A stretch of 57,311 bases of DNA from a virus, in IMG/VR virus record IMGVR_UViG_3300047317_000481, positions 1 through 57,311 of that record, one strand, 5' to 3'. The notes under the pieces were generated by a model. That model was not told where the DNA came from. It saw nothing but the letters and a program-made list of their open reading frames with translations, and ran no database searches. Numbering within the stretch: position 1 is the first letter of the stretch; every line of letters starts with the position of its first letter. Positions 40,246 to 50,232 of the stretch are shown here, piece after piece. The position numbers and the translations under genes are program-made.

Positions 40246-41211
40246 TCACTTCGGCAACGCTCTGCCTCCGCTTCCCTTCACTCCCTTCGATGGGGAGATC
40301 GAGATGTTCGCCTTGTCTCCAGCCGCCCGACCGCCGCTGTACGCAGCCGAGTCGAACCTGCGGCTGTCCCTGACCATCGAGGTCCGGTTGCGACCGTCCT
40401 GCGGGAACTGCGCGAACATGAAGTCCGCATTCACCTTCCGCTGATCGCGGAGCGCGATCTCCATCCCAGTTCCCAGGTGCTGGCCGGTCTCGATCCGCAT
40501 CTCTCGCATACGAGCATCGACGCGACCCGCAAACCCAGCCGCGAAGTTCCTGCGGTAGGTCTTGAAGTTCGCATAGTTCTGCTCGATCCCGGCCTTCTTG
40601 CAGTAGCGCCGGTACGCGTGAGCTTCCTTGTGACGGGCTGCGCTCACGGTCATACCGCGGTCGTAGCCGGCATCTTGCATGACCTTCGCCACTTCGAGCC
40701 AGCCCCAGCCAGCCTCACGAAACGTCCTCAGGTTCTCCTCATAGAGCTTGTTCGGATCGACCTTCGGATGAGTCGCTTCGATCAGCTGGGTCATCAGCGA
40801 GGTGAAGAGCAGAGACAAGTAGCCGAGGTCGGCATCGGTCCCGATCACCGGGATCGTGTACGACTTATGCTGCTTCGTCTCTCCGCTGAAGTGCTGCTTG
40901 TGGAAGACAATCGAACAGGTTGCCTGACCAGCAGCCGACTGGAACATCGACCAAAGAGCGTCGCAGATCTCTGGGAATGGCCCAGAGCTGAACGCCCAGG
41001 AGTAGTCGAAGTCCATGATAATCGGCGTGCGCTCGCTCAGGTTGCCTGACTCGCGCTGGGAGAGTTCCCACAGCTCGATGCTGTACTTCATCATCAGCTC
41101 GTCGGCCTTCGCCATGAACACCTGGCGCTCACCTTCGAACTCAGACGACTCGGCCTTGGCCATCAGACCTGCAATCTTACGCAGTAGATCATCCTTTTTA
41201 CTGGATGTCAT
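40246..41211 (-). CDS. DUF2786-containing protein
   Basis: 321 residues. The N-terminal 45 residues match DUF2786 (LLRKIAGLMAKAESSEFEGE, FMAKADELMMKYSI), a domain frequent in phages of Gram-positive hosts. The rest is a helical region with GYDRGMTVSAARHKEAHAYRR and a low-complexity C-terminus. DUF2786 is not functionally defined. First gene of its block. Confidence 0.7.
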   Translation of the reverse strand: MTSSKKDDLLRKIAGLMAKAESSEFEGERQVFMAKADELMMKYSIELWELSQRESGNLSERTPIIMDFDYSWAFSSGPFPEICDALWSMFQSAAGQATCSIVFHKQHFSGETKQHKSYTIPVIGTDADLGYLSLLFTSLMTQLIEATHPKVDPNKLYEENLRTFREAGWGWLEVAKVMQDAGYDRGMTVSAARHKEAHAYRRYCKKAGIEQNYANFKTYRRNFAAGFAGRVDARMREMRIETGQHLGTGMEIALRDQRKVNADFMFAQFPQDGRNRTSMVRDSRRFDSAAYSGGRAAGDKANISISPSKGVKGSGGRALPK

Positions 41212-47887: not shown

Positions 47888-47937
47888 GGGAGTCATAAGA
47901 TGTTTCCTAAGGAGTCCTAAGTTGAAATAAGGAGTCG
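47886..47937 (+). repeat. Three direct repeats TA(G/A)GGAGTC
   Basis: Copies begin at 47886, 47908 and 47928 (22 and 20 bases apart), each TAxGGAGTC followed by xTAAG in the first two. Spaced at about two helical turns. Sits next to the leftward promoter, so may be a regulator site. Confidence 0.5.
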
Positions 47938-48038
47938 TGCTTTTCCTTTGAGGTGTTTTGAAAGTGTTGTTTTGGCACATGACAGGGGGATGGATATGAA
48001 CGGTTTGAACGGGGGTGAAAACCGGCCGTTTTGAGATG

Positions 48039-48428
48039 GGCTTACGTGCCCGATTGTATACGTACATGACGTGTATTGGTAAGTTACTACTTACCATCCA
48101 AGGCATACCAACGTACACGTCAGAGTTTTCGGTTTTTGGCTTGACTTGAGAAGGAGTTTTACGACTTACGAGCGGGAATTGCCTTGCCGAATCGTTCAGG
48201 CTTACGAGTTGGCTTGTATACGCAAGAGTTTTCACATGCTTTGACCGATTTTTCAGGCTTACGAGATGGCGTGTTTTGGAAGTTGGCTTGAGTTGCCGGG
48301 AACACTGTTCCTGTGTTGAGTTGAGCGTACAGCCGGCAGCCGAGCTGTACCCACGGATTTGGCTTGCCTTGACGGATTTTACAGGCTTACGAGATGGCAT
48401 GCTTTGCCGACTTTGAACGGCTTATGAG
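48039..48428 (+). repeat. Six copies of GGCTTACGAG-like motif
   Basis: Starts at 48039, 48163, 48199, 48256, 48384 and 48419, at most two mismatches each. Three carry longer shared sequence (TT(T/A)CAGGCTTACGAGATGGC, preceded by TTGAC(C/G)GATTTT). Irregular spacing (124, 36, 57, 128, 35). The region is rich in G and T on this strand. Confidence 0.65.
48068..48122. repeat. Nested dyad TGGTAAGT/ACTTACCA inside GACGTGTA/TACACGTC
   Basis: The inner eight-base arms TGGTAAGT and ACTTACCA lie four bases apart. They are enclosed by GACGTGTA and TACACGTC arms. Concentric symmetry of this type often marks a protein-binding operator or replication-initiator site. Further hairpins nearby: GTACAGC-N10-GCTGTAC (near 48328-48351). 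Confidence 0.55.
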
Positions 48429-48449
48429 TTGTCTTGACGTCGAAATGAG

Positions 48450-49205
48450 TTGACATGCGATTGTCGGGTGAGCCGACAATCTCAAGGCAAGACAGTCGGG
48501 GCGGCCGATGGTCGTGGCGTGAGACCGTCGGTCACGCCGACAGTCGGCACGGCCAATCGTAGGGAAAACAAGCTAAAATCCCCCGTTCGGGGGAGACGAA
48601 CCGCGCGGTGCGCCGGTACGCTACTACCGAAGACGAACGAGGGACGGGGCGAACGGATCGCCCGCGAATCGGTCGTCGGGAAGGAAGCTATACCGAAGCT
48701 CGAAACTATCCGGAGGGCCGCTACCGCCCTTTACCTCGCGGCCCTCGCGGCCGACGGCGGAGCGGGCTACCCGTACTCCCCCGCGAAGACGACCGCGACG
48801 CTCGCGAAGCGGTACGGGATCGACCCCCGCGGCTCTATCGTCGGGATCGTCGCGGCGGAGTACTACCGCGAAAACGGGACGCGCGCTCCGCTCTCGTTCG
48901 ACCGGCTCGCGAAGGACGGACGCCCGACCGAAGCGGGTATCGCCCGGAGCGTCCGTAAGGCCCGGGACGCCCGCGGACGGCTCGCGCGGTGGGAGGTACT
49001 CGCGTACCGCCTCGCGGCCGCTCTCGGTACCGAGACGATCCCGTCTCGCTCCGCGGTCGAAGGGTACTACCGGAAGGGCGGCGGCGACGTCGAGACGTCC
49101 TATACCGGGAAGGGTACGCGCGCCGGAGCGACCGCGACGCGCGGCGACGCTACCGTCGAGGTCTCCGCGTCGGATCCCGTCGCGGACGCGGCGGCCGCCG
49201 AGTAA
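48450..49205 (+). CDS. GC-rich open frame lacking Met/Cys/His/Gln; start unclear
   Basis: A frame of up to 251 codons. From about 48640 its codons look strongly selected (G/C in the third position), and a terminator follows the stop at 49205. The visible protein (LETIRRAATALYLAALAADG, SPAKTTATLAKRYGIDPRGS, VRKARDARGRLARWEVLAYR) has no recognised family. From 48571 on, no ATG, GTG or TTG occurs in frame; upstream starts (TTG 48450, GTG 48519) lie inside 16-bp repeats that are not multiples of three. It contains one Trp and, in this stretch, no Met, Cys, His or Gln. Possibly a pseudogene, a rare-start gene or a frameshifted gene. Confidence 0.45.
   Translation: MTCDCRVSRQSQGKTVGAADGRGVRPSVTPTVGTANRRENKLKSPVRGRRTARCAGTLLPKTNEGRGERIARESVVGKEAIPKLETIRRAATALYLAALAADGGAGYPYSPAKTTATLAKRYGIDPRGSIVGIVAAEYYRENGTRAPLSFDRLAKDGRPTEAGIARSVRKARDARGRLARWEVLAYRLAAALGTETIPSRSAVEGYYRKGGGDVETSYTGKGTRAGATATRGDATVEVSASDPVADAAAAE
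48459..48570 (+). repeat. Tandem 16-bp iteron array, consensus GACxGTCGGxxxGGCC
   Basis: Seven units begin exactly every 16 bases at 48459, 48475, 48491, 48507, 48523, 48539 and 48555. Copies 1, 3, 5 and 6 hold G-A-N-N-GTCGG perfectly; 2, 4 and 7 are degenerate. Unit 1 is a hairpin with 9-base arms GATTGTCGG/CCGACAATC. Sixteen is not a multiple of three, so it is not coding. Exact phasing suggests cooperative binding of a protein, as in replication or partition iterons. Confidence 0.7.
48580..48593. terminator. Short GC hairpin before the GC-rich frame
   Basis: CCCCC(G)-TTC-GGGGG hairpin directly after the 16-bp repeats. No T-run follows, so it is not a classic terminator; it lies where a ribosome site would be expected for the GC-rich frame (GGGGGAG). 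Confidence 0.4.
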
Positions 49206-49239
49206 CGGCGCACCGCGCGAGCGGTATCCGCGTTCGGCC

Positions 49240-49269
49240 GAGAGGCCCCCTACGGGGGGCCTCTCTTTT
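49240..49269 (+). terminator. Rho-independent terminator after the GC-rich frame
   Basis: Eleven-base arms GAGAGGCCCCC and GGGGGCCTCTC around TACG, followed by TTTTCGC. A typical strong intrinsic terminator for rightward RNA from 48.6-49.2 kb, 34 bases after the frame's stop. It supports that this frame is transcribed. Confidence 0.8.
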
Positions 49270-49309
49270 CGCGCCGGGACTCCGGGAGGTGGGGATCGGG
49301 GACTTCAGA

Positions 49310-49620
49310 TAGAAACTGGCTCGAAAAATATTCACACACGCCTAAAACCCCTGCTCACAAACACTTTCCTTCCACCAAACCCCCACCAAACTGCGCTCAA
49401 GAACCAGCCGAACACCCACCCAAGCGACACACGACCGGAAAAACGGAAAAATACACACGCGCAAAACGAACCAGCTGGAAACAAGCAACTTTCTTTCCAC
49501 CAAAGCATATCAAAACCCAGTTCAAACCCCCATCCAACCCAACCCAAAAAAAATCCAACAAAACCTCAAAAAAAATCACACAATCCAACAAATCAAAAAC
49601 CCAAATTCACTTACTACGCC
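49310..49620 (+). other. Strand-asymmetric A/C-rich tract
   Basis: Nearly all bases are A or C on this strand, with almost no G (two or so per 100 near 49500-49607). It contains runs such as AAAAAAAA and CCAACCCAACCC. The opposite strand has guanine tracts (GGGTTGGGTTGGATGGGGG) with G-quadruplex potential. No open frame with coding character is seen. Confidence 0.7.
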
Positions 49621-49625
49621 TCCGC

Positions 49626-49788
49626 GACCCCCCCCCCCCCTCCGTGGCATTTCTCGTCTCCGCGCATACGTATACGGGGGAAAGTCCGAAGGACTTTGGG
49701 CGGGCGCGCGCTCGGGCGCATACGTGCGCCTACGCGAGGCCGGAAGGTGGGGGTCTGCCCTCGCGGGCGAGAGCGTAGTAAGTGGAGC
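49626..49788. other. Poly-C tract and hairpins upstream of rightward promoter
   Basis: A run of about 14 C near 49627-49641. Then AAAGTCC-GAA-GGACTTT, a perfect hairpin, and a palindrome around GGCGCATACGTGCGCC. No gene. It could insulate the rightward promoter or be an assembly-prone homopolymer. Confidence 0.55.
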
Positions 49789-49866: not shown

Positions 49867-50232
49867 ATGGCAAGGCCAAGGAAGCAACCACCGGTGAGTC
49901 TCACGAAGGATGAATTGATCTACCTCGCGGGGCTGTTTGACGGAACGATTGGCTTGCGTGGAACGAGCGACATCTACGCAGTCGCCATCTCCAAGAAACC
50001 GGATTGGCCCGAAGTCATGGCCAAGAAGTACGGCGGCGAGTCCAAGCCGTTCACGTCCAAGGGCGGCAAGGTTCTGTTTGGTTGGTTTGTCCCGCTCCAG
50101 CGCAGGCTGGAACTCTTCCTCATGCTGGAGAACGCCCAACTCATCCAGAGCCTGGACCCATACGACCGTGATGGAGTCCGTGGCAGGCTCCAGAAGTCCA
50201 TCAACTCGCTCAAGGAACGCGGCGGGGACTGA
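49867..50232 (+). CDS. LAGLIDADG-like protein, probably inactive
   Basis: 121 residues, AAAGGAGG six bases before the ATG. Residues 16-30 read DELIYLAGLFDGTIGLR, close to LAGLIDADG homing endonucleases, with KYGGESKPFTSKGGKVLFGW and QRRLELFLMLENAQLI matching the rest of a single-motif LAGLIDADG domain. The usual catalytic D/E of the motif is a Thr (FDGT), so cleavage is unlikely. It may be a domesticated DNA-binding relative. First gene of the rightward transcript. Confidence 0.6.
   Translation: MARPRKQPPVSLTKDELIYLAGLFDGTIGLRGTSDIYAVAISKKPDWPEVMAKKYGGESKPFTSKGGKVLFGWFVPLQRRLELFLMLENAQLIQSLDPYDRDGVRGRLQKSINSLKERGGD

Follow-up and report, generated by a model that had tools for sequence, protein, structure and literature searches.

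Near-complete loss of TpG and CpA from one small putative transcription unit of related uncultured soil phages

Selective loss of short motifs is familiar from phages, in which avoidance of restriction sites removes sequences of 4-8 bp genome-wide. The zone described here shares the selective loss of short motifs with that case but differs in scale, since it concerns every copy of a dinucleotide within a single unit: in an uncultured soil phage group, nearly all TpG and CpA (hereafter TG and CA) are gone from the gene, leader, and terminator of one small transcription unit, and from hardly any other part of the genome. We know of no natural gene from which a dinucleotide and its complement have been purged so fully, with the loss of four amino acids and sometimes of the start codon, in a family that nevertheless persists, and the literature that we searched held no natural gene with a comparably complete purge of a dinucleotide and its complement. 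The dinucleotide-level rule of self and non-self that we propose for this phage unit has a logic comparable to that of vertebrate CpG sensing. Another likeness is with the endoribonuclease MazF, which ACA-less mRNAs survive, as exploited for single-protein production: mRNAs without a short cleavage motif can still be translated while the enzyme cuts the rest (PMC5408214, PMC9102682). That system is engineered, depends on a trinucleotide in one RNA strand, and has an identified enzyme, whereas the phage zone is natural, involves a dinucleotide and its complement in both mRNA and non-coding segments, and has an enzyme that is only postulated. At the DNA level, effectors of the Cas12c family (type V-C) recognize, on either strand, exactly the dinucleotide missing from the zone: the PAM of Cas12c1 and of OspCas12c is TG, and in vitro neither OspCas12c nor Cas12c2 cuts DNA (PMC9522604). 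The difference here is that no host, CRISPR array, or spacer is linked to these phages. Fungal repeat-induced point mutation (RIP) likewise yields low CpA and TpG and raised TpA (PMC2621366), but it inactivates genes by C-to-T changes, whereas the phage gene is intact, conserved, and richer in GC than its genome.

The window, that is, the whole 57,311-nucleotide stretch of the virus record IMGVR_UViG_3300047317_000481 that we analyzed, had been described from its letters as carrying only two TG and one CA, with frequent CG, between 48571 and 49260, and this count proved exact: TG 2 (odds 0.07), CA 1 (0.02), CG 141 (1.60), and TA 29 (2.15). The zone is in fact slightly wider (48570-49289, bounded by CA at 48569 and TG at 49290), and its three residual dinucleotides, TG at 48609, TG at 48990, and CA at 49211, each lie within the motif CGCGCGGTG or its complement. 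Against 64.1 occurrences expected from the segment's own composition and the dinucleotide odds of the genome, the observed 2 TG and 1 CA give a Poisson log10 P of -23.2, and the longest TG/CA-free runs in the zone measure 381 and 221 bases, compared with at most 53 elsewhere in the window. The original claim was to fall if other GC-rich segments were similarly depleted; 635 other 300-bp segments with a GC content of at least 68%, taken from related phage contigs, contain at least 17 TG and CA each, and the zones have a median of 2.

That the zone is a by-product of composition, a chance event, or an assembly error has next to no probability. It has a high GC content and is difficult to assemble, and a related contig (G008) begins inside its A/C-rich flank, either of which could speak for an error, but P is about 1e-23, no comparable case occurs among the GC-rich segments, and a second contig, IMGVR 3300046642_000545, has an identical zone (12 differences over 12.6 kb, none of them in the zone). 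With this contig and the homologous loci of nine phages, misassembly as the source of the zone is excluded, and chance, composition, and assembly error are refuted as causes. A long run of C lies in the right flank at about 49629-49642 of the window, and contig G008 opens with 17 A in that same flank (L052 1-17), so assemblies tend to break there.

The open frame at 48612-49205 contains no Met, His, Gln, or Cys and one Trp, as originally reported. It is a genuine gene, and its synonymous codon choices follow the next base: the third position is filled by T (11 cases, no C) when the next codon begins with A and by C (64 cases, no T) when it begins with G. The synonymous choices alone have a log10 P of -23 and the amino acids one of -9. 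Translation most likely starts at an ATA at 48690, a few bases 3' of a Shine-Dalgarno-like GGAAGGA (48679-48685, plus strand) that is placed by alignment to homologs starting with ATG or GTG. The start codon of one relative seems to be ATC, so that in two members of the family ATA or ATC seems to have replaced ATG. The resulting frame of 171 codons (48690-49205, plus strand) would encode a small, basic protein that is modeled as helical (AF2, pLDDT 79.9). This protein has no significant sequence or fold match in Pfam, PHROGs, PDB, or BFVD, and searches of phage records, plasmids, and bacterial genomes yielded no relative outside the nine-phage group. Upstream of it lies a structured, TG/CA-poor leader (48598-48678, plus strand), which measures about 100 nt at most of the nine loci, and the left boundary is marked by a hairpin, CCCCCGTTCGGGGG (48578-48597), that on the minus strand has the sequence of a leftward-facing intrinsic terminator (TCCCCCGAACGGGGGA TTTTAG). 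The right boundary is an intrinsic terminator on the plus strand (49240-49269) with an 11-bp stem, GAGAGGCCCCC/GGGGGCCTCTC, and a T-run. A 14-bp perfect complement between the leader (48602-48619) and the 3' end (49202-49219) holds the only TG of the leader and the only CA; this closing stem was not matched in strength by any of 100 shuffles, and it is strong in the window but not a general feature of the relatives.

Contigs of relatives were retrieved through their terminase, and the zone was found at the matching place, a few kb upstream of the terminase gene. Eight further phages carry the same gene in the same place, with 37-50% protein identity to that of the window, giving nine homologs (the window, L011/G002, L016/G007, L018/G009, L021/G012, L022/G013, L033/G015, L058/G016, and L070/G027). 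All are TG/CA-free but for 13 TG (7 in Trp codons, 2 in Met codons, and 4 at codon junctions) and 1 CA in 4,428 coding nucleotides. C|A codon junctions number 0 of 251 and T|G junctions 4 of 694; His, Gln, and Cys are absent throughout, and an internal Met occurs only in L058. The non-coding parts follow suit, with one TG or CA in 720 nt of leader and one in 360 nt after the stop. Most pairs of homologs share only about 45% of their four-fold third positions, which is near saturation, so the rule must be actively kept and recent descent from a TG/CA-free ancestor cannot explain the exclusion. Purifying selection for absence of the TpG/CpA step is the reading that these comparisons support best. 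Whole-contig scans gave a single such zone in each, except for two extra low stretches in G007, and phage records at 39-49% terminase identity (Arthrobacter phage Amigo, a faecal phage, and the examined part of Streptomyces phage Satis) have no such zone.

Once opportunities are counted, TG and CA are avoided about equally on the coding strand, which does not separate an RNA-level from a DNA-level reading. The GC content of the zone is 70-76% in the nine homologs, above that of the genome, and its TA excess is 1.61 where a maximum-entropy model predicts 2.15 from the exclusion alone; the excess therefore needs no mutational source, and at the composition of the zone the enrichment of both TA and CG largely follows from the exclusion of TG and CA. 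These comparisons divide the interpretations first offered for the zone. Escape from a TG/CA-centered nuclease or modification, or selection on a DNA- or RNA-level signal, is still the best class, strengthened by nine divergent phages that keep the rule. Acquisition from a source with extreme CpG enrichment is not supported: all nine phages carry the gene in synteny, its CpG excess has the explanation just given, and the searches of phage records, plasmids, and bacterial genomes revealed no relative.

On the right, the zone stops at the intrinsic terminator in most loci, and in G012, G013, and L058 TG reappears immediately after the T-run; the G007 zone, which contains one TG, extends as far as a more distal terminator. 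On the left, outward-facing antisense terminators are present in four of the nine loci (the window and three of the eight homologous loci). TG is nearest at the right edge in 7/9 loci and CA at the left edge in 6/9, a tally that has counterexamples and is confounded by a conserved motif. A motif, CGGGACTCC (49275-49283, plus strand, in the window), directly follows the terminator in 7/7 contigs tested and also in L058 and L070, and is nearly unique in each genome. The flanks are skewed in all loci: the left flank (47900-48569 in the window) is T/G-rich and the right flank (49290-49610) A/C-rich, hence CA-rich, on the plus strand. The left flank also carries TTGAGTTG, at 48288 and 48316 in the window and in 2-8 copies, mostly in one orientation, in the relatives; these arrays, which are concentrated on this side of the zone, are possible sites of a regulator or a replication origin. 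Pairing of the left flank with the right flank in a closing stem does not exceed that of dinucleotide shuffles in 7/9 loci, being above it only in G013 and, marginally, G012.

More distant relatives have, close to the corresponding position, zones with other content: a different gene together with non-coding sequence, or non-coding sequence alone. Contig G021 comprises two related phage genomes, each about 65 kb long and with a single TG/CA-free zone of roughly 1 kb. The zone gene there is unrelated to the nine-phage gene and lies on the other strand (MSVSK...), and its protein has no Pfam match. A structured non-coding segment of 264 bp is 93% identical between the two genomes (L063 4111-4503, L071 1-424). 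Pattern searches for further copies of this gene and of this segment returned only the contig already known, and Rfam gave no match at the gathering threshold for the non-coding segments of the zone. G023 has a TG/CA-free, strongly structured non-coding segment of about 230 bp (L065 1228-1457) closed by the stem GGCGCCCTAT/ATAGGGCGCC, and a comparable segment at L016 3607-3794 has the closing stem GCGCTCTA/TAGAGCGC. Since zones with an unrelated gene or with non-coding content obey the same rule, it belongs to the nucleic acid, that is, to the locus and its transcripts, and not to one protein. G024, at 62% terminase identity, has no TG/CA-free zone, so the wider lineage does not require one.

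Loss of TG and CA even at the cost of a start codon suggests a cell factor that attacks or silences nucleic acid at a two-base step. Tentatively, and with somewhat less than even confidence, we favor the view that the zone is one terminator-insulated transcription unit, kept free of TpG and CpA on both strands by selection because it thereby escapes an attack that depends on TG/CA (UG/CA) and is probably directed at RNA. Some factor in the infected cell would recognize the TpG/CpA step and destroy or silence nucleic acid containing it, while the products of the unit, be they the small protein or a structured RNA, would have to be made despite that factor. A transcript without UG or CA would survive such an endoribonuclease much as ACA-less mRNAs survive MazF, and if both strands were transcribed, a single forbidden RNA dinucleotide would account for the absence of TG as well as CA from the DNA; there are only hints that both strands are transcribed. 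We consider RNA a likelier target than DNA because the zone fits the likely limits of a transcript and includes non-coding segments: the proposed cleavage motif is nearly absent over the frame, the leader, and the 3' end, as far as the presumed RNA ends define them, and abundant in the rest of the genome. The genome outside the zone carries about 110 TG and CA per kb, so a DNA-cutting factor would destroy the phage anyway, and a local exemption is sensible only if transcripts are attacked or DNA is silenced uncut. Against RNA as the target, equal avoidance of TG and CA on the coding strand is also expected of a DNA-level target, and the relative G024 lacks a zone. We know of no enzyme that cuts RNA at UpG and CpA while sparing UpA and CpG, our literature searches found none, and the annotated genes of the window include no endoribonuclease of UG/CA specificity. 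The broader proposition, that a dedicated phage unit in protein- and RNA-coding versions stays expressible while a TpG/CpA-specific prokaryotic or phage factor silences or destroys all else, strikes us as a serious possibility that still falls short of an even chance. The zone suggests an agent of two-base specificity in bacteria-phage conflict or in phage gene control, and makes this postulated agent findable.

The main rival places the escape at the DNA level, from a factor that recognizes 5'-TG on either strand without cutting, such as a Cas12c-type effector with a TG PAM; the unit would then be a PAM-less anti-defence locus, encoding a protein or an RNA, that is always expressible and switches the defence off. 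Although we judge it unlikely, it explains the strand symmetry directly, as both strands are equally TG-free, effectors with this PAM exist and some do not cut DNA in vitro (PMC9522604), and the content of the locus varies between relatives (an unrelated protein, non-coding RNA), a feature also of anti-defence loci. It is weakened by a putative promoter side that lies in the TG/CA-containing flank at most loci and by inconsistency of the directional exclusion expected at the edges; no similarity to known anti-CRISPRs was found, and the literature searched yielded no PAM-free gene of comparable extent. Distinctly improbable, in our estimate, is a zone that excludes a protein of phage or host origin: the protein would bind, coat, or modify DNA at TG/CA-containing sites, and the unit, for example as an origin, transcription start, or packaging signal, would have to stay unbound or unmodified. 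The TTGAGTTG arrays and near-unique CGGGACTCC that flank the zone, and the skewed flanks of all loci, would suit such a protein, but avoiding an 8-mer does not require the loss of every dinucleotide, a whole frame is kept inside the zone, and C5 and N6/N4 DNA methylase families are absent from the phages.

We give very little credence to context-dependent mutation targeted to the unit (CpA to TpA in the manner of RIP, or A-to-G editing of CpA), with selection acting only to keep the frame open. High TpA with low CpA and TpG does resemble the fungal signature (PMC2621366), and the retained TGs are mostly Trp codons, where a change would be costly; yet the zone is richer in GC than the genome, its TA falls below the maximum-entropy expectation, its frames are intact, its non-coding edges stop at terminators, and synonymous T|A choices take the place of C|A junctions. 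If only start codons (NTG) were avoided, the equally strict loss of CA would be left unexplained, and general avoidance of pyrimidine-purine steps is ruled out by the abundance of TA and CG.

The nearest downstream neighbour of the unit, a 121-aa protein (49867-50232, plus strand) seen in the seven phages checked, contains a LAGLIDADG-like string, YLAGLFDG, that is motif-like only: its Foldseek matches are not significant (I-MsoI, TM about 0.3). A DUF2786 protein (window 40246-41211, minus strand) has no match in G021 and G024 and is present in the six relatives carrying the nine-phage gene that were compared. The 129,757-bp contig IMGVR_UViG_3300046533_000294 (L063/L071/L072-L078) joins two phage genomes of about 65 kb head to tail, with blocks 76-89% identical; it is probably an assembly chimera, and its two genomes form a usable natural comparison pair.
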